Shown: positions 206 through 20,023 of the stretch, in pieces
Layout: each line of letters opens with the position of its first letter
Position numbering within the stretch: the first letter of the stretch is position 1
From: a virus
Strand: one strand, 5' to 3'
IMG/VR virus record: IMGVR_UViG_3300021961_000668
Span: 1 to 23,030 of that record
DNA: 23,030 nt
Translations under genes and position numbers: made by a program
The notes under the pieces: model-generated
The model's input: the letters and a program-made list of their open reading frames with translations, nothing else
What the model was told of the DNA's origin: nothing
Database searches by the model: none

Positions 206-213
206 GATAAATA
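206..213 (+). promoter_or_regulatory. late-type promoter GATAAATA before the HNH gene
   Basis: GATAAATA matches the T4-like late -10 element (NATAAATA). It lies exactly 5 nt before ATG 219, so initiation would fall on the start codon. No Shine-Dalgarno sequence is present. One short AT-rich match could occur by chance, but the spacing is the same at two other genes here. Confidence 0.45.
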
Positions 214-218
214 TTATT

Positions 219-746
219 ATGGAAAAAGTATTACACAAACATCATATTATACCCAAACACGCCGGTGGAACCGACGACGAATCCAATCTTGTATATCTAA
301 CTGTTGAAGAACATGCAGAAGCACATCGCTTATTATTTGAACAATATGGCAGGCAGGAAGATTATCTTGCTTGGCGAGGTCTCGCAGGACTCGTAGGCAA
401 AGACGAAATGCTAAGAGAAAAGCTATCTTTAAACTCGGCCCGGCCCGGTGAGTTAAATCCGTTCTACGGCAGGAAACATACAGAAGAAACTAAAAAGAAA
501 ATATCGGAAAGTAGAACAGGAAAGAATATTGGCGTTGTAAACAATACGTGGTTGCCAGAAGCGAGACAAAAGATATCAGAATCTCGTAAAAAGAATTCTG
601 CCAAATATACTTTTAAACATCCCGAACACGGTGAGTTTTATGGAACAACCGGAGACTTAGCAAGAGCCTATAACTTTAGCAGAGCATCTGAAGCATACAA
701 GTTAGCTAAAGGCGAATACAAATCCTACAAAGGTTGGACTCTTTAA
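219..746 (+). CDS. HNH homing endonuclease with NUMOD3 repeat
   Basis: A 175-residue free-standing homing-type nuclease. Residues 8-9 (HHIIPKH), N23, H32 and H36 form an HNH zinc/metal site. Residues about 77-102 carry the NUMOD3 signature (GELNPFYGRKH followed by KKISESRTGK), a DNA-binding module typical of phage GIY-YIG and HNH homing enzymes, with a second partial copy (QKISESRKK). The C-terminus (EFYGTTGDLARAYN...) resembles a NUMOD1-type helix-turn-helix. A TTG at 204 is also in frame, but ATG 219 starts directly before the HNH core. It is the only complete plus-strand gene and sits between two minus-strand genes, as expected for a mobile gene that spreads by cutting HNH-less alleles. 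There is no SD; a late-type promoter abuts the ATG. Confidence 0.9.
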   Translation: MEKVLHKHHIIPKHAGGTDDESNLVYLTVEEHAEAHRLLFEQYGRQEDYLAWRGLAGLVGKDEMLREKLSLNSARPGELNPFYGRKHTEETKKKISESRTGKNIGVVNNTWLPEARQKISESRKKNSAKYTFKHPEHGEFYGTTGDLARAYNFSRASEAYKLAKGEYKSYKGWTL

Positions 747-7948: not shown

Positions 7949-7956
7949 TATTTATC
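7949..7956 (-). promoter_or_regulatory. late-type promoter GATAAATA, tail fibre
   Basis: GATAAATA lies 25 nt from the GTG start, with a predicted transcript start near 7943 and SD AGGAG inside the short leader. This is a standard late-promoter layout. Confidence 0.65.
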
Positions 7957-9056: not shown

Positions 9057-9787
9057 TTTTTTTTTGAGTGCTGTATTGATTCGCGCTTTTCACGACCAAG
9101 TTCTTCGTCGCCGCCGGCTGCTGGTTCAGCTGCTGCACCCATATCGTCAGTTGGCGCAACTTCTGCATCTGTATCAGCATCAACTGTTGGTTCCATGTCT
9201 GCTTCTGGTTCTACACCCATAGTGTCTACAGGCTCAGCTTCACCGGTTAGTTGTCCAACACCCTGTGTTAGTACGCCACGGGTTGATTCCATTGCGGCAT
9301 ACATTGCTTCTAGTGCTGGCTTAACTGTGCTTGTGAATGTTTCTGCTGCTTCACTACCCATTTCATCACGAATAGCATCAGCTAGCTCTAACATTGATTC
9401 TGTCTGCATTTCAGCAGTATCTTCCATCCAGCCAGTAACACGATCAACCATGTCCTTAGCTGCCATTACTAGTTCTGCTTTGTCTTCTTCGCCTTCGTTT
9501 AGACGTTCAATTGCTTCATCAATAGCAACACTTACATCATCGCGTTCTAAAATAGCAGCATTTAAAACATCAAGGAAGAGTTTGTTTTTCTGATAGCTAA
9601 TAGATTGCGTAGTGTTATAACTTTCACTAGTTTGCATTTGACTTAAAGATGTACGTATCTTATTACGGACATCCTGTAGTTGTTCTGTTGTAAACTTTTC
9701 TAAATCAATTTTTGCGCCAAAGCGAGTTGCTAGGCTTTCGTTTAGCTTTTTAGCTGTTACTGGTTTTGTAAATTCTCTAATGTTCAT
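9047..9787 (-). CDS. acidic conserved phage protein with slippery 3' end
   Basis: A 246-residue protein recalled from marine T4-like phages as hypothetical (MNIREFTKPVTAKKLNESL start, then FTTEQLQDVRNKIRT). Residues about 1-170 are helical, with KDMVDRVTGWMEDTAEMQTESML; about 175-228 is a very acidic Ala/Asp/Glu/Pro linker; the end is REKRESIQHSKKKLK. The acidic helical character would suit a scaffold or core protein, but that is inference. SD GGAAGAG and a late promoter CATAAATA (9825..9818) precede it. The last codons contain A-AAA-AAG in the zero frame, the classical -1 slippery heptamer, only two codons before the stop. Confidence 0.85.
   Translation of the reverse strand: MNIREFTKPVTAKKLNESLATRFGAKIDLEKFTTEQLQDVRNKIRTSLSQMQTSESYNTTQSISYQKNKLFLDVLNAAILERDDVSVAIDEAIERLNEGEEDKAELVMAAKDMVDRVTGWMEDTAEMQTESMLELADAIRDEMGSEAAETFTSTVKPALEAMYAAMESTRGVLTQGVGQLTGEAEPVDTMGVEPEADMEPTVDADTDAEVAPTDDMGAAAEPAAGGDEELGREKRESIQHSKKKLK
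9057..9065 (-). other. candidate -1 ribosomal frameshift site (A-AAA-AAG)
   Basis: Nine A residues followed by G, read in the zero frame as TCA AAA AAA AAG. Slippage by -1 places the ribosome at GTT AAA GTA ACT, the open frame that continues for 109 codons including stop. I see no strong downstream hairpin (only a weak GTAAC/GTTAT pairing) and no clear upstream SD stimulator, so efficiency is unknown and a true indel remains possible. Confidence 0.5.
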
Positions 9788-12696: not shown

Positions 12697-12936
12697 TCAC
12701 ATGTGTCTTACTAAAACTTTGTCGCCGGGTTTAATGCCACGATCAACTGTGCCTTTAGCTTTGGTATCTAATGTTAGATTGCCGCGCTCGTCTTTAGCGA
12801 TAGCGCCAGGCTTAGTAGGATCTTTAGGGACTACTGTTCTTATTTTAGTCTTTGGATCAATTAGCGTGGTTTGTTTTTCATCATCTAACTCGATCTGTAA
12901 AAATTGATCTTCAACTATTAACTCACTTATTTTCAT
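12697..12936 (-). CDS. small conserved hypothetical protein
   Basis: A 79-residue protein beginning MKISELIVEDQFLQIELDDEKQT, the MKI-x-ELI start common among small T4-like marine phage proteins. It ends in a beta-like segment (KGTVDRGIKPGDKVLVRHM), where KPGDKVLV resembles an SH3/KOW-type barrel turn. Function unknown. SD AAGGA precedes the ATG, which overlaps the previous gene's stop by 4 nt. Confidence 0.68.
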   Translation of the reverse strand: MKISELIVEDQFLQIELDDEKQTTLIDPKTKIRTVVPKDPTKPGAIAKDERGNLTLDTKAKGTVDRGIKPGDKVLVRHM

Positions 12937-13259
12937 ATCTTTTTCCTTTTAAACAGTCTTTTCCTAGATACACGTTTTTTCAATCGTCTTGCTCCAACGT
13001 TATAGCCTTTTAATCTACGAGATGCAGCATTTGTCCGTTTAGTTATTCTTGTCTTTTGTGCTTGCGATGCACCTTTGCGAGCTCGAACTGCTTTAAACTT
13101 CATTGACTTTGTTGGGCTTAGTGGCGCATTACAAGTAGTTGCCTTTGATACAATTCTACCGCGTCTTGGACCCGATGTGCAACGATATTTCCTTACGGTT
13201 TCGCCGCCCTTTCTACCAAATATCTGTTTATAGCCTTCAGTTATTTCAAGTACTAGCAT
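12933..13259 (-). CDS. basic protein, paralogue of its upstream neighbour
   Basis: A 108-residue, strongly basic protein (many Arg and Lys). It shares the block VRKYRCTSGPRRGRIVS...C...KTRITKRTNAASRR with the adjacent 95-residue protein, including two conserved cysteines about 16 residues apart. The charge and fold-like repeat suggest binding to DNA or RNA, perhaps in packaging, but no known domain is recognised. SD AGGT lies 10 nt from the ATG. The two genes look like a tandem duplication that has since diverged, this copy having a longer basic tail (KKRVSRKRLFKRKK). Confidence 0.72.
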   Translation of the reverse strand: MLVLEITEGYKQIFGRKGGETVRKYRCTSGPRRGRIVSKATTCNAPLSPTKSMKFKAVRARKGASQAQKTRITKRTNAASRRLKGYNVGARRLKKRVSRKRLFKRKKI

Positions 13260-13263
13260 TGCG

Positions 13264-13551
13264 TTACCTACTCTTGTTTAACGCTTGTACTCTGCGACTG
13301 GCTGGGTTAATTCTTTTAGTTCTACGAGCTTTGCGTACTATACGTTGTCCTAGTCTAGCTTTGATTCTTTTAAGGCGAACTCGTTTCTTAATGTCAGGTG
13401 AAGCAAAACATTGCTGCGGTGTTGCAACTACACGACCGTGACGACGACCTCCTTGACAGCGATATTTGCGGACGACCTTTTTACCTGATCGTGCCCAAAC
13501 TTGCTTTTCTTCAAGAGGTTCTTTGGTTATAAAAAATTCTCGCAATAACAT
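13264..13551 (-). CDS. basic protein conserved in T4-like marine phages
   Basis: A 95-residue basic protein (MLLREFF..., VWARSGKKVVRKYRCQGGRRHGR, C48, RRTKRINPASRR). I recall near-identical layouts from cyanophage genomes, annotated as hypothetical. A nucleic-acid-binding role is likely from charge. It has no SD: the sequence before the ATG is GCTAAATA-ACTAC-ATG, a late-type promoter 5 nt from the start codon. It is the paralogue of the gene that follows it. Confidence 0.75.
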   Translation of the reverse strand: MLLREFFITKEPLEEKQVWARSGKKVVRKYRCQGGRRHGRVVATPQQCFASPDIKKRVRLKRIKARLGQRIVRKARRTKRINPASRRVQALNKSR

Positions 13552-13556
13552 GTAGT

Positions 13557-13564
13557 TATTTAGC
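13557..13564 (-). promoter_or_regulatory. late-type element GCTAAATA 5 nt from an ATG
   Basis: GCTAAATA matches the CTAAATA variant seen at several other genes here. Initiation 6 nt downstream would fall on the A of ATG 13551, giving a leaderless mRNA. Confidence 0.5.
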
Positions 13565-13570
13565 GGATTT

Positions 13571-13810
13571 TTAGAACTTCATTAATATTACGACTATAGT
13601 GGAAAGTAGGCCCGCGATAATAGTGCCTGTTGCACCAACTAACACTTTAACAAGACTGGTCTGGCCGTGACGCATGTCTTCATGAATTTCATCTAAACGT
13701 TCTTCAACTTTGTTCATTCGACTATCTAATTGCTGATAGCGAAGAGCGCACAAATCGACATGTGCTTCTAAACTCTGTCTTTCTAATTCAGTTGTTGGGC
13801 TTGTTGACAT
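13571..13810 (-). CDS. small coiled-coil protein with C-terminal membrane anchor
   Basis: A 79-residue protein. Residues about 8-50 form a charged heptad-like helix (LERQSLEAHVDL, RMNKVEERLDEIHEDM), and residues about 55-78 are a hydrophobic segment (VKVLVGATGTIIAGLLSTIVVILM). The layout resembles XhlA/holin-accessory proteins and other tail-anchored phage lysis or host-membrane proteins; no decisive motif is present. SD GGAGAAG and a perfect late promoter TATAAATA (13908..13901) precede it, so it is probably a late gene. Confidence 0.72.
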   Translation of the reverse strand: MSTSPTTELERQSLEAHVDLCALRYQQLDSRMNKVEERLDEIHEDMRHGQTSLVKVLVGATGTIIAGLLSTIVVILMKF

Positions 13811-13874
13811 CTATTCTTCTCCGTAATTACTCAACAATTAAAAAACGTTGGTGCCTTGTAATAGATGCCTAGTA

Positions 13875-13895
13875 TGTAGTATGATATATGCTACA
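13875..13895 (-). promoter_or_regulatory. 5'-terminal hairpin of the 13810 transcript
   Basis: TGTAG/CTACA arms around an 11-nt loop begin at the predicted first base of the transcript from TATAAATA. A 6th pair is possible. This is one of several 5'-end hairpins in the window. Confidence 0.4.
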
Positions 13896-13900
13896 TGTAT

Positions 13901-13908
13901 TATTTATA
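13901..13908 (-). promoter_or_regulatory. late promoter TATAAATA
   Basis: An exact match to the T4 late consensus in the 114-nt gap before the 13810 gene, with a predicted start at 13895. Confidence 0.8.
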
Positions 13909-13924
13909 TGAGTGTATTACGATA

Positions 13925-14314
13925 TTAATCTACGCAGTTAAATGTTAAGTTCTTAAATTTACTATCTTTAGTAAGGAATAAGTTTTTTCCTAATTTTACA
14001 GTTTCATTCAAATTATTTATTATTGGAACGAAATCAAAGTCATCATCTAACATGTCAACTGTCAAACCGCCTTCATACTCTACACCAAAACTGCCCTTCC
14101 AAACTTGTTGTTTTCCTTTATACTCAGTCCCAAAGTCAAATGCCGATACATCTTCTTTTACAGTTTCAACTTTTAAATTAACTGTATTCACACGTAAACT
14201 TAACGTTTGTGTAAAGGTTAAAAAGTTTTGTTGCTGTAACCATGCAGCATCATTTTTATTAAACCTAACACTAGTTTCGGTTATATCAACAAGAGTATAA
14301 AAAACAAAATTCAT
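13925..14314 (-). CDS. conserved hypothetical protein of T4-like marine phages
   Basis: A 129-residue protein, MNFVFYTLVDITETSVRFNKND..., whose start matches a cyanophage hypothetical family I recall. The middle (AFDFGTEYKGKQQVWKGSFGVEYEGGLT) and VDMLDDDFDFVPIINNLNETV suggest a beta-sandwich, possibly virion-associated; no enzymatic motif. It has no SD: CGTAAATA-CTGT-ATG abuts the start. Because an intrinsic terminator ends at 14332, its promoter must fit in the 17 nt between, which favours a leaderless transcript. Confidence 0.78.
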   Translation of the reverse strand: MNFVFYTLVDITETSVRFNKNDAAWLQQQNFLTFTQTLSLRVNTVNLKVETVKEDVSAFDFGTEYKGKQQVWKGSFGVEYEGGLTVDMLDDDFDFVPIINNLNETVKLGKNLFLTKDSKFKNLTFNCVD

Positions 14315-14318
14315 ACAG

Positions 14319-14326
14319 TATTTACG
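14319..14326 (-). promoter_or_regulatory. late-type element CGTAAATA 4 nt from an ATG
   Basis: GTAAATA is a one-base variant of the late motif, squeezed between the terminator at 14361..14332 and ATG 14314. No other promoter candidate or SD fits in this gap. Confidence 0.5.
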
Positions 14327-14331
14327 GTCAC

Positions 14332-14361
14332 AAAAAAAACGCCACTATAAAAGTGGCGTTT
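14332..14361 (-). terminator. strong rho-independent terminator
   Basis: On the minus strand AAACGCCACT pairs with AGTGGCGTTT around a 5-nt loop (10 bp, GC-rich) and runs directly into a U-tract (eight A on the plus strand at 14332-14339, part of them pairing). It lies 26 nt after the stop of the 86-residue gene. It is the best terminator in the window. Confidence 0.92.
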
Positions 14362-14386
14362 CCTTCCCATCCCTAAGGGTTAATTA

Positions 14387-14647
14387 TTATGGGTTCTGAG
14401 CAAAAGTTGCTACAACTGTGCCACCAGTAATAGATGGAGTTGCTGTACCCTGTAGAGCGATATGATCGCCGTTACCTGTACCTTCAACACCTGCTACTGT
14501 GAAAACGTTGTCGTTTGCGTCACCAGTGGTTGCTTCTGTGATAGCTGCTGCTACTGTTGCTGTACCTGTGTTGATTGATACAATATATGTGTTGCCGCCG
14601 AGGCCATTACCTGCGACTACTGCTGCGTTTGATGTTACTGCTGCCAT
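14387..14647 (-). CDS. small Ala/Gly/Thr-rich protein, probable abundant virion protein
   Basis: An 86-residue protein made almost only of small residues and beta-formers (MAAVTSNAAVVAGNGLGGN, YIVSINTGTATVAAAI), without Cys, Trp or Leu-rich segments. It looks like a small beta-sandwich such as capsid-decoration proteins, but this is inference. Its transcription unit is exceptionally complete: late promoter ACTAAATA (14713..14706), a 9-bp hairpin at the 5' end of the mRNA, SD GGAG 8 nt from the ATG, and a strong terminator after the stop. A private, stabilised mRNA suggests high late expression. Confidence 0.8.
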   Translation of the reverse strand: MAAVTSNAAVVAGNGLGGNTYIVSINTGTATVAAAITEATTGDANDNVFTVAGVEGTGNGDHIALQGTATPSITGGTVVATFAQNP

Positions 14648-14673
14648 TTTATTTCTCCTATAATCTTTAATGG

Positions 14674-14697
14674 CAAGTTCATTACTCTATGAACTTG
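14674..14697 (-). promoter_or_regulatory. 5'-leader hairpin of the 86-residue gene
   Basis: CAAGTTCAT/ATGAACTTG is a perfect 9-bp stem with a 6-nt loop, starting about 3 nt after the predicted transcript start (14700). It lacks a U-tract, so it is more likely an mRNA-stabilising 5' stem than a terminator of the upstream gene. Confidence 0.6.
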
Positions 14698-14705
14698 TAT
14701 ACTTT

Positions 14706-14713
14706 TATTTAGT
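14706..14713 (-). promoter_or_regulatory. late-type promoter ACTAAATA
   Basis: ACTAAATA lies in the gap after the 14736 stop. The same 8-mer precedes the fibre gene and the 19981, 21188 and 22260 genes, which supports it as a true promoter variant in this phage. Confidence 0.65.
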
Positions 14714-14735
14714 CATTTTGGAAAAAATATAGCTA

Positions 14736-15680
14736 TTAACGCCTTTTTAAAGCTCTCTTATGCAGAGCTCTAAGGTTTTGTACATATGCAGGACCAGCCT
14801 GAACAATATCATCTATTAGCTGTATTGCTGGCATATATGCTTCTACATATGCTGCGGGAATACCACGTCCGTCAGCAGCCATTTCTAAAAACTTTTTAGC
14901 TAGCATTAAATTTTTAGTTCCTACAAGATAACGATAAAGGGCAATTTCTCTAGTAGTACCTACTAGATCAGGTTTACTTACAACTGGTTCAGGACTTGTT
15001 TCCGTGTCCTTCTCCATATTATTGTTTGATGCCCAATGTTCAAAGTTAGATATAATGTCAGAACTTCCTAGCTTTGCTCTTACTGCAAATATTAAACGAG
15101 TTGCTACAGTTCTTTTGTCTTGCCTAGTAATTTTCCCCCAATCACCCAGCTGTCTACGAATTGCTTTGTAATCAGTGTTTGTTATTCTTAAAGCCGACTC
15201 TAGCTTAATTAACAAACTGTTTACAAGTGTTGGCTCTGCGCCTTTAGCAAGAGTGCTAATGTACCTGTTTAGATCTAATATAGGAAGTTTTGTATTAGCT
15301 TTTAGCTCAATAGCCTTTTCAGGATCTTTTAATTTACGCTGAGCACTATTGTCGCCTACAATAAAATAGATAAAATTATATAGGTCTGTACCCATAATAC
15401 GGTAAAACTTGTACAGTTCAAATCCTGCTGTTTTATTTGTGTAGTCTTTTACAAAACTAGCATAACTAGGATAACGCCTTAGTGTTTCTAACACAAGAAG
15501 CATTAGATATAATCGTTCGCAACAATCAGAATAGGTTAGCTTTTGTGAATTACCGTTGTCTTTAGTCATCCTTGATTCGTGGATGTCTTTTAAGAAGGCA
15601 AATGGTTCTACTTTGGGAACAGACACATCGTGTCCGCCCTCCATTGCTGCCCATTCTAATGATGTGTAACGATCTTCCAT
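14736..15680 (-). CDS. conserved hypothetical protein
   Basis: A 314-residue mostly helical protein, MEDRYTSLEWAAMEGG..., with a central hydrophobic helical block (CCERLYLMLLVLETLRRYPSYA, LYNFIYFIVG) and a basic end (LRALHKRALKRR). The start resembles a hypothetical family in T4-like marine phages. No catalytic motif. Residues about 220-240 (MEKDTETSPEPVVSK) look like a flexible linker between two helical halves. No SD; AATAAATA lies exactly 5 nt before the ATG, predicting a leaderless late mRNA. Confidence 0.78.
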   Translation of the reverse strand: MEDRYTSLEWAAMEGGHDVSVPKVEPFAFLKDIHESRMTKDNGNSQKLTYSDCCERLYLMLLVLETLRRYPSYASFVKDYTNKTAGFELYKFYRIMGTDLYNFIYFIVGDNSAQRKLKDPEKAIELKANTKLPILDLNRYISTLAKGAEPTLVNSLLIKLESALRITNTDYKAIRRQLGDWGKITRQDKRTVATRLIFAVRAKLGSSDIISNFEHWASNNNMEKDTETSPEPVVSKPDLVGTTREIALYRYLVGTKNLMLAKKFLEMAADGRGIPAAYVEAYMPAIQLIDDIVQAGPAYVQNLRALHKRALKRR

Positions 15681-15684
15681 ACTG

Positions 15685-16809
15685 TTATTTATTGAAACTG
15701 TTGTTAGGATTATAATAATTGATCATGTCTACATCATCAACAAAGCTAGCGTTACTATCTATTGATTTATTTTGATGATAAGAAAATATTAATACTCTTT
15801 GTAAACTTACTTTTTTACCCTTCCTATTAAAGTATTCATTGTCTTTAGTAAAATCAAAAATAAACTGCTTTGCATGTGGTTTGTAATCATTTTTGCCTGT
15901 ATGATAACGACCTACTAGCATACTCCATTTTTGAAAATTTTGAGAAGAAAAGAAAACTTTATAATATTTGTCTATTAAATCTTTATCAAGGGTTGGCATA
16001 CTAGCTAGACTATAACCAAAGTAAAAGTGCTGAAATTTTAAATTAAAGTAAATCCACCAAAAGAAATCAAAATTGCTTTTGATCTCACAAGGTGCATGAT
16101 TAATATTATCTACTAACAATTCCCACCACAAATCTTTTTGAAGATCTGTTTTTTCATTAATTGAACTATTTGTTGAGTCAACCCACCATTTATGATATAG
16201 ACCGTTTTGCCAATTGTCCATCATTGCGTCGTTGCCATACCGTCCTTGTGCCCATTCTGTTAGTTTATAAGGATAGGTCATGTCAGCAAGATCGCCTGTA
16301 ACAACAATATAATCTTTATTAAAATATTGTGGTAGATGGAGGCTACTGACTATTTTAAAATTCTTTTGAATAAACTTATAATAAAAACTTGTATATTCTC
16401 GAATGCTATCAATAGACATGCAAACAACTACTTTATCTTTTAAACTGTTGATGTCTTCTAACATCATCAAACTCACTAGTATAGATGTCGAGTCAACACC
16501 GCCAGAATACATTAGCAGCAAAGGTTTATTCATATTGCGGCTCGATTCTAATAGATTTTTTGCTGCTTCTAAACAACAGTCTTTGTATGACATATTAAAA
16601 TTAGTTAGATCAGTTGGTAATTGACAATTTTTATAAACTTCGTAGTTAAAAGTTGACTGTATTCTACCTAGTCGATCTATTATGTTTCCGCGAGGTGTGT
16701 ACCTATCAGTGATTGCCCACATATTTGCAAAATCTAATCTTTTATCTTTTTGTTGATCTAGCAGACTAGTTCGACCATAAAAAAGTTTTTTAGAATTGGA
16801 TGGATGCAT
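15685..16809 (-). CDS. PP-loop ATP pyrophosphatase-like protein (asparagine synthetase/QueC fold)
   Basis: A 374-residue protein. LLLMYSGGVDSTSIL (about residues 97-111) is the PP-loop (SGGxDST) that binds ATP and releases PPi in asparagine synthetase, QueC, TilS, NAD synthetase and related amidating or sulfurating enzymes. The next conserved-looking parts are KVVVCMSIDS (nucleotide-fold strand) and DYIVVTGDLADM, as in Asn-synthetase-like domains where a second acidic loop follows. There is no N-terminal glutaminase domain, and no QueC zinc CxxC cluster is evident. The product could be a modified base, amino acid or peptide; unknown. Start uncertain: ATG 16833 is in frame, but 16809 gives less overlap and a GGA 12 nt upstream. 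Trp, Tyr and Lys are unusually frequent. Confidence 0.75.
   Translation of the reverse strand: MHPSNSKKLFYGRTSLLDQQKDKRLDFANMWAITDRYTPRGNIIDRLGRIQSTFNYEVYKNCQLPTDLTNFNMSYKDCCLEAAKNLLESSRNMNKPLLLMYSGGVDSTSILVSLMMLEDINSLKDKVVVCMSIDSIREYTSFYYKFIQKNFKIVSSLHLPQYFNKDYIVVTGDLADMTYPYKLTEWAQGRYGNDAMMDNWQNGLYHKWWVDSTNSSINEKTDLQKDLWWELLVDNINHAPCEIKSNFDFFWWIYFNLKFQHFYFGYSLASMPTLDKDLIDKYYKVFFSSQNFQKWSMLVGRYHTGKNDYKPHAKQFIFDFTKDNEYFNRKGKKVSLQRVLIFSYHQNKSIDSNASFVDDVDMINYYNPNNSFNK
15686..15693 (-). promoter_or_regulatory. late-type promoter AATAAATA 5 nt from an ATG
   Basis: AATAAATA-ACAGT-ATG: initiation expected on the start codon of the 314-residue gene, which has no SD. The element overlaps the end of the PP-loop gene. 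Confidence 0.55.
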
Positions 16810-17443
16810 GTTCAGATATTTTCCAGAATGCATCTTGACATTCTTTATAGTTTTTTGATCTGTTTATCTGCTGTTTTAAATGTTCGTAGGCTGCATATAA
16901 TCTCATAGAGTACAGCATATATGATTCATGCTTCATTTTTAACTCATTATACGCAACTTCAGGCTCTATAGAATTTATCTTAGCATATTCTTTTACTAGA
17001 TAATTTTTGCTGCCTTGAGCTAGTTCGTGACCTAACGAATTCATAAAATTTAGATCGGTAGTTAAGCAATATCTTTTTTGTATAGACATTAGATTTTGAT
17101 AGAATTTAGTTAAAAATTCTTTTCTTATTTTTGCAAGATCAATAATATCTTTTACATCTTGAGGAGGATTATCGACTAAATCAATTAGAAGAGGCTCAGT
17201 ATTAATCCATCTACGATACTGTAGATAAAGTTTAATAAATTCTTTTTCCAACACAGGTTCTAAACTAAAATTGCTTTCCTCTAACTTTTTAAGAAATTCT
17301 TTATTATTAACATTGAACTCGTGTGGTATAATAACTTCAACATCTGTAAAGCCTTCTATTAGAGCATCTGCCACTGCCGGTATGTTTGTTGCTGCAATGA
17401 TGTAACCAGAAGAGACATCGTATAACAGATATTCTTCACTCAT
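16790..17443 (-). CDS. hypothetical helical protein upstream of PP-loop gene
   Basis: A 217-residue protein. The N-terminus (YLLYDVSSGYIIAATNIPAVADALIEG) looks like a small beta-alpha domain, and about residues 100-215 are helical with many charged and aromatic residues (KIRKEFLTKFYQNLMSIQKRY, SYMLYSMRLYAAYEHLKQQINRSK). No recognised motif. It overlaps the PP-loop gene, so the two are probably translated together and may act on the same substrate. No SD is visible before the ATG (only T-rich sequence), and there is no promoter there, so its translation may depend on the upstream gene 8 nt away. Confidence 0.7.
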   Translation of the reverse strand: MSEEYLLYDVSSGYIIAATNIPAVADALIEGFTDVEVIIPHEFNVNNKEFLKKLEESNFSLEPVLEKEFIKLYLQYRRWINTEPLLIDLVDNPPQDVKDIIDLAKIRKEFLTKFYQNLMSIQKRYCLTTDLNFMNSLGHELAQGSKNYLVKEYAKINSIEPEVAYNELKMKHESYMLYSMRLYAAYEHLKQQINRSKNYKECQDAFWKISEHASIQF

Positions 17444-17451
17444 GTAAAAAA

Positions 17452-17814
17452 TTAGAATTTTTCGTCGTCTTCGGGCTCATCAGGAACATCGTCACCTTTG
17501 AGTTCAACTGGACCATGTTTCTTAGCTAGATCTAGCATACTTGCAATTTCTTCCTTGCTTAGACCTGTTTTCTTAATTAGATCATTTAGGTTTTTTGCAC
17601 CAAATGCTGTACCATAAGCTGTTAGCTCATCGCCCAATCTCGACATCTTATTTGATCTATCAACTTCTGCATCGCTAACGCCTTTGCCCATTGGCATCTT
17701 TGCGCTAATGTCCATTAGTCGACGGCCATAATCTGCGAGTGTGTATTCAGCTTTTGAAGCTTTATAACCTGGATTTACGTTTGCACTTGCTTCTGTAATT
17801 TCTTTAATTTTCAT
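17452..17814 (-). CDS. hypothetical protein
   Basis: A 120-residue protein starting MKIKEITEASANVNPG. The start at 17814 is chosen because AAGGA lies 10 nt upstream and this removes an overlap with the ligase-like gene. The protein is helical (YTLADYGRRLMDISAKM, LNDLIKKTGLSKEEIASMLDLAKKHG), where the last part resembles a small helix-turn-helix, and ends in an acidic tail (DDVPDEPEDDEKF). It follows the ligase-like gene by 10 nt in the same operon. Confidence 0.7.
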   Translation of the reverse strand: MKIKEITEASANVNPGYKASKAEYTLADYGRRLMDISAKMPMGKGVSDAEVDRSNKMSRLGDELTAYGTAFGAKNLNDLIKKTGLSKEEIASMLDLAKKHGPVELKGDDVPDEPEDDEKF

Positions 17815-17824
17815 TTCTATTTCC

Positions 17825-18925
17825 TTAATTAGGTGTCCAACGATGACGTGGAACAAGTTTGGTTTTACTTCCAAGTGCGACATAGCCTTCGCCGCCCTTT
17901 TCGCCTTTTGTGCTTGCCTTCACATCTGCATCTGCTGAGTCAAGTTGATCAATTAGATCATTCTTAACCGCCATTATCTTTCTAACCAATTCAAAAATAG
18001 CAGGCAATGCATTAGGATTAGCCTCGTTCATCGAAGCAATTTTTGCTTGCTTAGGCTCGCTTACTTTGCTAGTTTTAAGCCAATCAAAAAAGTTACTTCC
18101 TAATCCTTCTAGGTTTCCGCCTTTGCTTTGTGAGTTAACATATGTATATATGATATTCTTCATATCACTTAATCCTGCAACAGGTGCTAGAAACTGATCT
18201 ATTGCTTTACCATTTTTAGCTGTTAAACTGCGTATTTCTTTTACATGACTTGTATCAACTTTAGGCTGATGTGTTACATATGTTTGTCCTAAAACAACTG
18301 CATCTTTATTATTCAGTGCCGCTGTATCTTCAATAGGTGTACTAGTTTTACCCCCAAACTCATCATACTGTGAATGTACTACGACACCAACTTTTGATCC
18401 TGCTATGCGTTTACCAAGTTGGCTATCTGTAGTTACTGTGTAGGTGACTTTGTTGGGAGTAAATTGTATTCCTTCTTTACCTGCGGTAAAGGGCTTGCCA
18501 GGCATGTATAATATATCTCCATATACATATCCTCGAAAGCCCGGAGGTGTTGCTTTTTCTAAAATGTTAAAAGTAGCAGCCATGTTATTACCAAAGTCTT
18601 CACGCCACGGCTCACCTTCTACACCTTTGCCCGAGTTTTTAATGAACTTGCTTAGATCGGCTGCGTTGGTAGATTTATTCTTGCCCCAACCATTCTTGCC
18701 AACCATTACAAACTGTCCATCTGACTCGCGACCCCAATACACTGTGGGATTACCGTCCCACTTGATGCTTACATCACTGGTGTCAGTACCTAGCTTGTCT
18801 AGTATGTCTGCTGCTTCATTTGCACCTTCGGCGCCGTCAACAAACACTAGATCTTCAAGGTGTTGAAAGTCGCGGCCTACTTTGGCTGCTTCTGTTAGTA
18901 TTGTGCGAAATTCTTGGAATCTCAT
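17825..18925 (-). CDS. ligase-like covalent nucleotidyltransferase (DUF6267-like)
   Basis: A 366-residue protein that resembles the phage family I recall as DUF6267. Motifs fit the DNA/RNA ligase and mRNA-capping superfamily: motif I K55-W-D-G58 (SIKWDGNPTVYWG) with K55 as candidate AMP/GMP-accepting lysine, motif III-like YGDILY (134-139), motif IV-like EGYV (346-349) and motif V-like K354-T-K356. About 200 residues separate III from IV, longer than in classical ligases. Its ATG overlaps the stop of the nucleotidyltransferase gene (ATGA). Probable role: sealing, capping or adenylylating nucleic-acid ends; no substrate can be deduced. Confidence 0.72.
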   Translation of the reverse strand: MRFQEFRTILTEAAKVGRDFQHLEDLVFVDGAEGANEAADILDKLGTDTSDVSIKWDGNPTVYWGRESDGQFVMVGKNGWGKNKSTNAADLSKFIKNSGKGVEGEPWREDFGNNMAATFNILEKATPPGFRGYVYGDILYMPGKPFTAGKEGIQFTPNKVTYTVTTDSQLGKRIAGSKVGVVVHSQYDEFGGKTSTPIEDTAALNNKDAVVLGQTYVTHQPKVDTSHVKEIRSLTAKNGKAIDQFLAPVAGLSDMKNIIYTYVNSQSKGGNLEGLGSNFFDWLKTSKVSEPKQAKIASMNEANPNALPAIFELVRKIMAVKNDLIDQLDSADADVKASTKGEKGGEGYVALGSKTKLVPRHRWTPN

Positions 18926-19731
18926 TTGTTAAATGCTCCCGATACCATCACAGTATGATTTAACAAGTGACCTGTTATTTCTTTTATACGGTTCAACTGG
19001 CGGTCAGCAAGTGTTTCTTTAGGCTGTACTTTTGCTTTGTTCCATCCTGACTCTGGGTCTTCTTCCTGAGCAGCTATTAACGCCTTAGCGTCTGGTTTTA
19101 CTTTAAGTATACTTTCAACTGATCCTAGATCTTTTGCACCGGCATTAGGACCCAATAGTATCTTTGCAATCTCATCTAGATCACTTGACACTAATGAGTC
19201 GTCGCGTCTTGCTAGTAAACCTTTGTATGCACTCCACTTAAATCCTTCTGGATATTCTGGAGTTGTTGCATTTTTTGCTAGGTCTGCAATTAGTATTTGC
19301 TTGTGTACGCCTTTGTAGGGCGAACCTTTTGGAATGTCGTGTACGTGAAACTTTTGTGCTGTTTCGCCGTTGTCAACAACCATGATATCAACTTGCTGTG
19401 CAGAATCACCCACAGTAGTTTTAACGTGAACACTTGTACCTGTTTTCTTTGTATCAAACCCTGCTTGTTGGAATAGTTTTTCTAGTTCTACTCTAGCACC
19501 TTTAGCATCTTTTACTTTGAAGAAGTCTATTAGCTTACCAGCGTCTATAATCATGTCAAGGTCGCCGCTTCGCTTGCCTGGTGTAGGTGTTGCACCAGAA
19601 CCCATAGGCAGAGCTTTTGCGCCTGTTTTAGATACCACACTATTGATCTGCTTCATCATATCCGGTATGATAGCATGATCAAAGTCAGTAGTCTGATCTG
19701 GCCAAATGTTGCCGCCTTCAGTTAGATTCAT
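18922..19731 (-). CDS. pol-beta-superfamily nucleotidyltransferase
   Basis: A 269-residue protein. PMGSGATPTPGKRSGDLDMII (about 42-62) is the GS...DxD signature of pol-beta-type nucleotidyltransferases with metal ligands D57 and D59; the third Asp is D115 in QVDIMVV. The domain continues with KGVHKQILIADLAKN. The family includes CCA-adding enzymes, poly(A) polymerases, MNT-type toxins and antibiotic NTases. ATG 19731 (SD GAGAG) is preferred over TTG 19746. It overlaps the 87-residue gene by 14 nt upstream and the ligase-like gene by 4 nt downstream, so all three are translationally linked. Confidence 0.8.
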   Translation of the reverse strand: MNLTEGGNIWPDQTTDFDHAIIPDMMKQINSVVSKTGAKALPMGSGATPTPGKRSGDLDMIIDAGKLIDFFKVKDAKGARVELEKLFQQAGFDTKKTGTSVHVKTTVGDSAQQVDIMVVDNGETAQKFHVHDIPKGSPYKGVHKQILIADLAKNATTPEYPEGFKWSAYKGLLARRDDSLVSSDLDEIAKILLGPNAGAKDLGSVESILKVKPDAKALIAAQEEDPESGWNKAKVQPKETLADRQLNRIKEITGHLLNHTVMVSGAFNK

Positions 19732-19994: not shown

Positions 19995-20023
19995 ATGTAT
20001 AGTATTTAGTACATTTTATACAT
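19995..20023 (-). promoter_or_regulatory. late promoter ACTAAATA inside an inverted repeat
   Basis: ACTAAATA (20010..20003) with predicted start near 19997, flanked by ATGTATA/TATACAT arms (7 bp, 15-nt spacing). The arms could be a regulator site or a hairpin ending the upstream transcript. Confidence 0.55.

Follow-up and report, generated by a model that had tools for sequence, protein, structure and literature searches.

Candidate leaderless late mRNAs from T4-type late promoters placed beside the start codon in marine phages

The late promoters of phage T4 (TATAAATA; gp55/gp33/gp45) consist of a single -10-like element with a TAAATA core and have no -35 element. The element occupies positions -13 to -6 relative to the transcription start (PMC1524935; reviewed in PMC2988020). 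In T4, KVP40, and Syn9, late elements lie ~17-36 nt upstream of genes led by a Shine-Dalgarno (SD) sequence and never 4-5 nt from an ATG. The window is the whole 23,030-nt stretch of DNA analysed here (IMG/VR record IMGVR_UViG_3300021961_000668, positions 1 to 23,030), a 23-kb fragment of an uncultured virus in which elements of the same kind end only 4-5 nt before several ATGs. Such short-spaced late promoters very probably give leaderless or near-leaderless late mRNAs, in the window from the genes starting at 13551(-), 14314(-), and 219(+), as judged by sequence comparison with related phages.

Aeromonas phage Aeh1 and cyanophage S-PM2 have late promoters (CTAAATA, NATAAATA) that resemble those of the window in their relaxed positions before TAAATA, but a leaderless arrangement is not described there, and in Aeh1 the spaced pattern matches once and the reversed pattern four times. 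The pelagimyophages HTVC008M and Mosig carry the arrangement at genes for the baseplate wedge protein gp25, head completion protein, and DNA end protector, although the pelagimyophage literature does not describe it. As with T4 late promoters, the genes served are homologues of T4 late genes. Leaderless mRNAs, which include that of lambda cI and are common in mycobacteria and Deinococcus, have their start codon at or near the 5' end, lack an SD, and strongly prefer AUG, and their translation needs an AUG at or near the 5' end (PMC9031893). They derive elsewhere from a single repressor gene or from host genes, whereas here they would represent a class of virion and other late genes in large lytic phages, expressed from a phage late promoter. 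Leaderless late genes of T4-type phages are nowhere described in the literature searched, an absence that is uncertain because most subscription papers fell outside the search. The novelty is the combination of T4-type late promoters with leaderless mRNAs, both known separately.

In the proposed mechanism, TAAATA would form the core of a late promoter of the T4 type, which a gp55-like phage sigma on the host RNA polymerase presumably recognises. For one class of late genes, the last base of the promoter would be fixed 4-5 nt (sometimes 6-9 nt) before the ATG, and transcription would start on the A of the start codon or within a few nucleotides of it. The mRNA would be leaderless or nearly so and would be translated without an SD by recognition of its 5'-terminal AUG. 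The same genomes would also use the same element 17-36 nt upstream of SD-led genes. By the T4 geometry, a 5-nt spacing would place +1 on the A of the ATG. The identity of the sigma, the exact +1, and the route of leaderless translation are points that we infer, and so is full leaderlessness rather than a 1-4 nt leader.

Late elements and start codons in the window and its relatives

The window encodes ribonucleotide reductase subunits, virion structural proteins, an endolysin, and an HNH homing endonuclease, and a near-identity search found only short matches in isolates. The first-pass annotation had placed late elements 4-5 nt before four ATGs without an SD. TAAATA is indeed present at 219(+), 13551(-), 14314(-), and 15680(-), and none of the four has an SD usable by anti-SD duplex energy (-0.7, +1.8, -3.4, and +0.8 kcal/mol, respectively); most other window genes have values of -4 to -9 kcal/mol. 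The accompanying statement that all other genes with a free upstream gap have good SDs, apart from 8713 and 17443, needs a small correction: 11054, 16833, 6298, and possibly 9014 also lack one. Translational coupling can explain these SD-less genes outside the four, most of which overlap or abut the upstream gene. Two ordinary late elements serve as comparison sites: the one at 20003-20008(-) precedes ATG 19981 by 21 nt, and this start has an SD; the one at 7949-7954(-) precedes GTG 7923 by 25 nt, and the SD there is strong.

It is scarcely credible that the window coincidence reflects chance in AT-rich DNA, with the genes translated by coupling from upstream read-through. When the 40 nt upstream of every gene were shuffled 3000 times with dinucleotides kept, TAAATA fell at 4-5 nt in zero, one, or two genes, and the observed four were never reached; the reversed pattern has no occurrence in the window. 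This bears out the earlier judgement that a missing SD with fixed spacing is hard to ascribe to chance. The explanation does hold for 15680, where the motif lies within the last codons of the upstream open reading frame (ORF) and orthologues lack it. For 13551, 14314, and 219, tens of loci conserve the arrangement and already contradict it. On the shuffles together with the permuted motifs, chance was rejected as the explanation.

The comparison covered 175 viral loci gathered via four window proteins, together with the window itself, and the distance measured was that separating TAAATA from the first ATG in frame in long ORFs. Its distribution is bimodal: 48 cases at 4 nt and 76 at 5 nt, bins of 1-10 cases between 6 and 16 nt (almost none, in single counts, at 6-7 nt), and a broad second hump at ~17-36 nt. 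Permuted hexamers give no such bimodal shape. Some permuted motifs looked raised at 4-5 nt, and these seem to be overlaps shifted by one base, such as AAATAT within TAAATAT. The elements have a conserved TAAATA core with the first two positions relaxed, and no -35 is needed.

The two spacing classes differ in their start regions. An SD energy of -5 or lower occurs in 1% of the 4-5 nt class versus 62% of the 17-36 nt class, and a pyrimidine directly precedes the ATG in 120/124 versus 143/349. RNA polymerase start sites usually prefer a pyrimidine followed by A. Start codons in the 4-5 nt class comprise 124 ATG, three TTG, and no GTG. Short spacing is seen in 75 protein families, 21 of which are represented in at least two records.

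Conservation at individual late genes

Two of the short-spaced window genes, 13551 and 14314, encode small uncharacterised proteins and the third, 219, encodes the HNH endonuclease; the region is mainly structural. Among the orthologues of all three, the motif and its spacing stay constant while the upstream sequence changes.

The 13551 gene (13264-13551(-)) encodes a 95-aa basic protein (MLLREFF...RKYRC...) from a predicted leaderless mRNA. Its late element GCTAAATA lies at 13557-13564(-), with TAAATA at 13557-13562, 5 nt before the ATG. TAAATA-N5-ATG is kept in nearly all of 80 orthologous loci, and the family alignment has an invariant start Met and 57-76% identity to orthologues. Thinning left 29 rows whose upstream regions diverge; in these, every TAAATA column is invariant (2.0 bits), the spacer carries 1.55 bits, and positions -45 to -14 average 0.40 bits. 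The product has no Pfam or PHROG match. An adjoining paralogue at 12933-13259(-) is ~40% identical and shares the RKYRC core, and the two small basic proteins are perhaps internal head DNA-binding proteins.

The 14314 gene (13925-14314(-)) encodes a 129-aa protein, also from a predicted leaderless mRNA, and its late element CGTAAATA lies at 14319-14326(-), with TAAATA at 14319-14324, 4 nt before the ATG. Among its 48 family members, motif and ATG are separated by 4 nt in 37 and by 5 nt in nine. An intrinsic terminator, AACGCCACT-TTTAT-AGTGGCGTT followed by a T-run, occupies 14332-14360(-) and ends just upstream of the late element. A terminator is found upstream in 47/48 loci, and in 46 of them the T-run stops 8-10 nt short of TAAATA, so transcription reaching the ATG must mostly begin in the last ~20 nt. 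The alignment shows T-L-x-D-I-T near the N-terminus. The product has a confident predicted fold (pLDDT 95.8), and a structure search returned no PDB match, only uncharacterised phage proteins including those of RaK2 and Atu_ph07.

HNH gene 219 (219-746(+)) encodes an HNH/NUMOD3 homing endonuclease, supported by Pfam NUMOD3 and HNH and by PHROG homing endonuclease matches. Its late element GATAAATA spans 206-213(+), with TAAATA at 208-213, 5 nt before the ATG. Orthologues at loci L417-L421, L426, and L427 keep TAAATA-N5-ATG, and the mobile gene therefore appears, by this sequence conservation, to bring its own leaderless late promoter. Loci L419 and L420 lie on one viral contig of 117,666 bases that holds two HNH gene copies, each with TATAAATACTTGT|ATG.

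The GenBank starts of HTVC008M genes coincide with the short-spaced ATGs. The short-spaced genes include those for baseplate wedge subunit gp25, a head completion protein, a DNA end protector, and a tail-tube-associated baseplate protein, and all of the virion genes listed are homologues of T4 late genes. The DNA end protector (minus strand) and head completion (plus strand) genes of pelagimyophages are divergent, with ATGs ~26 nt apart. The spacer between them contains TATTTA and TAAATA head to head, each 5-8 nt from its own ATG (L237:18890-18970, corresponding to HTVC008M 18891-18970, and L498-L521). Across contigs that are 59-100% identical, the two elements stand anywhere from 2 to 9 nt apart, yet the distance from motif to ATG hardly changes; the constrained distance is thus that from motif to ATG. 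As read from these spacers, there is no space for an SD leader on either side unless transcription starts inside the opposing gene. The spacer has the appearance of a compact bidirectional promoter serving a pair of apparently leaderless late genes.

These loci also bear on whether TAAATA beside the ATG is instead an AU-rich translational element, S1-binding or Kozak-like, acting on leadered mRNAs. The motif sits where an SD would be, and AU-rich sequence around non-SD starts can aid initiation. This explanation is nonetheless very unlikely. SD-led genes carry this hexamer as well, at 17-36 nt upstream, too distant for a start-site element; terminators of the 14314 family end 8-10 nt before the motif; and two divergent genes that share a spacer of ~26 nt have one motif each. 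Moreover, permuted A4T2 hexamers show enrichment at 4-5 nt only as frame-shifted overlaps of the motif, and a pyrimidine followed by A at the ATG is in keeping with a transcription start. The class of leaderless late genes suggested by the first-pass annotation draws support across relatives from bimodal spacing, SD loss, conserved spacing, terminators, and the divergent pair.

Distribution among phage genomes

A count of the short-spaced motif in related marine phages against shuffled controls had been proposed with the original annotation, and it gave a clear excess in the clade of the window and in HTVC008M and Mosig. TAAATA at 4-6 nt before ATG was compared, in larger records, with shuffled upstream regions. 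Observed counts versus null means were 22 versus 1.8 in G001 (null maximum 4), 14 versus 1.7 in G002, 8 versus 0.9 in both G003 and G004, 10 versus 0.4 in G005, and 5 versus 0.5 in G006. Pelagibacter phages HTVC008M and Mosig gave 12 versus 1.0 and 6 versus 1.1. The class at this spacing is missing from T4, KVP40, Syn9, RaK2, and Atu_ph07. The genome-wide excess is not significant in P-SSM2 (3 versus 1.35), and likewise in AG-345-P14 and immuto. An extension of the class to cyanophages was dropped, as Syn9 has none and P-SSM2 is not significant.

At baseplate wedge gp25, the element lies 5-6 nt from the ATG in HTVC008M-like contigs, 6 nt in many pelagimyophage loci, and 7-9 nt in distant Melnitz-like contigs; a spacing of 8 nt is seen at L138 and L172. 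The longer spacings favour real promoters that initiate slightly upstream, giving leaders of 1-6 nt and near-leaderless translation, by a mechanism that would be essentially the same. Such initiation is the less likely reading: the sharp peak at 4-5 nt, the single counts at 6-7 nt, and the pyrimidine before A favour initiation on the A.

Several results weigh against leaderless initiation on the start codon throughout this class. Under the T4 rule, a 4-nt spacing would place +1 on the T of the ATG, and start-site selection must flex by 1 nt; the 7-9 nt spacing of Melnitz-like gp25 points rather to a 2-4 nt leader. The genome-wide excess is not significant in Salicola phage SCTP-2 (9 versus 5.1) or Melnitz (3 versus 1.25), and the extension of the class genome-wide to these two phages was dropped on those counts. 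A gp55-family homologue is present in HTVC008M, with more distant ones in G001 and SCTP-2; none was found in the fragmentary G002-G006, and gp33 was found only in HTVC008M, Syn9, and T4. Finally, 15680 is ruled out as a conserved member of the class by orthologues without the motif.

On the ribosome, protein bS21 sits close to the anti-SD region, and it is conceivable that a phage bS21 favours SD-less messages. Among the records tested, phage bS21 mostly goes together with the leaderless class, Atu_ph07 being an exception: it was found in G001-G005, HTVC008M, Mosig, Melnitz, SCTP-2, and Atu_ph07, and was not found in T4, KVP40, Syn9, P-SSM2, RaK2, AG-345-P14, or immuto. A tight link between bS21 and the leaderless class was suggestive but was rejected, as Atu_ph07 breaks it and phylogeny confounds it. 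A link to phage IF3 was likewise set aside; IF3 was found only in RaK2 and Atu_ph07, both without the short-spaced class. A broader and rather doubtful proposal is that abundant marine T4-type phages share a lineage-wide second mode of late expression, which would combine start-codon-fused promoters, a palindromic bidirectional promoter for two leaderless genes, and bS21 tuning of ribosomes.

Short-spaced late promoters predict leaderless translation of some late genes in phages of abundant marine bacteria, SAR11 included. Prediction of middle and late promoters in pelagimyophages has been unsuccessful (PMC7029224), and the arrangement, if true, would give a reason for the failed late-promoter searches. 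Annotation of marine phages would also gain an internal signal by which to correct gene starts, and the competition of leaderless messages during infection, so far studied mainly with lambda cI and in actinobacteria, would have a natural system. HTVC008M on HTCC1062 is a cultured phage-host pair at hand.

Site 15680 and other window genes

The site AATAAATA at 15686-15693(-), with TAAATA at 15686-15691, lies 5 nt before ATG 15680 and overlaps the stop codon of the upstream ORF. AAT AAA TAA are the final codons of that ORF (15685-16833(-)) and supply the motif. Orthologues of the 314-aa gene (14736-15680(-)) directly abut the upstream gene, have no motif at this distance, and mostly have no clear SD, and they do not support the earlier listing of 15680 as a leaderless example. 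The motif here is probably coincidental, and coupling or reinitiation, not a leaderless mRNA, most likely accounts for translation of the gene. An 86-member family for its protein was disregarded as a product of loose single linkage.

In the relatives inspected, a different sequence lies directly upstream of the 15680 orthologue. Upstream of 15680 in the window are the ORFs 15685-16833(-) and 16790-17443(-), one of which has an SGGVDST ATP-pyrophosphatase-like motif.

Similar short N-termini (MNIREF, MKINEL, MKISEL, MLLREF, MRFQEF, and MKIKEI) occur in window proteins starting at 9787(-), 10447(-), 12936(-), 13551(-), 18925(-), and an ATG near 17812(-). We take them to be reminiscent of the prohead-targeting peptides of T4.

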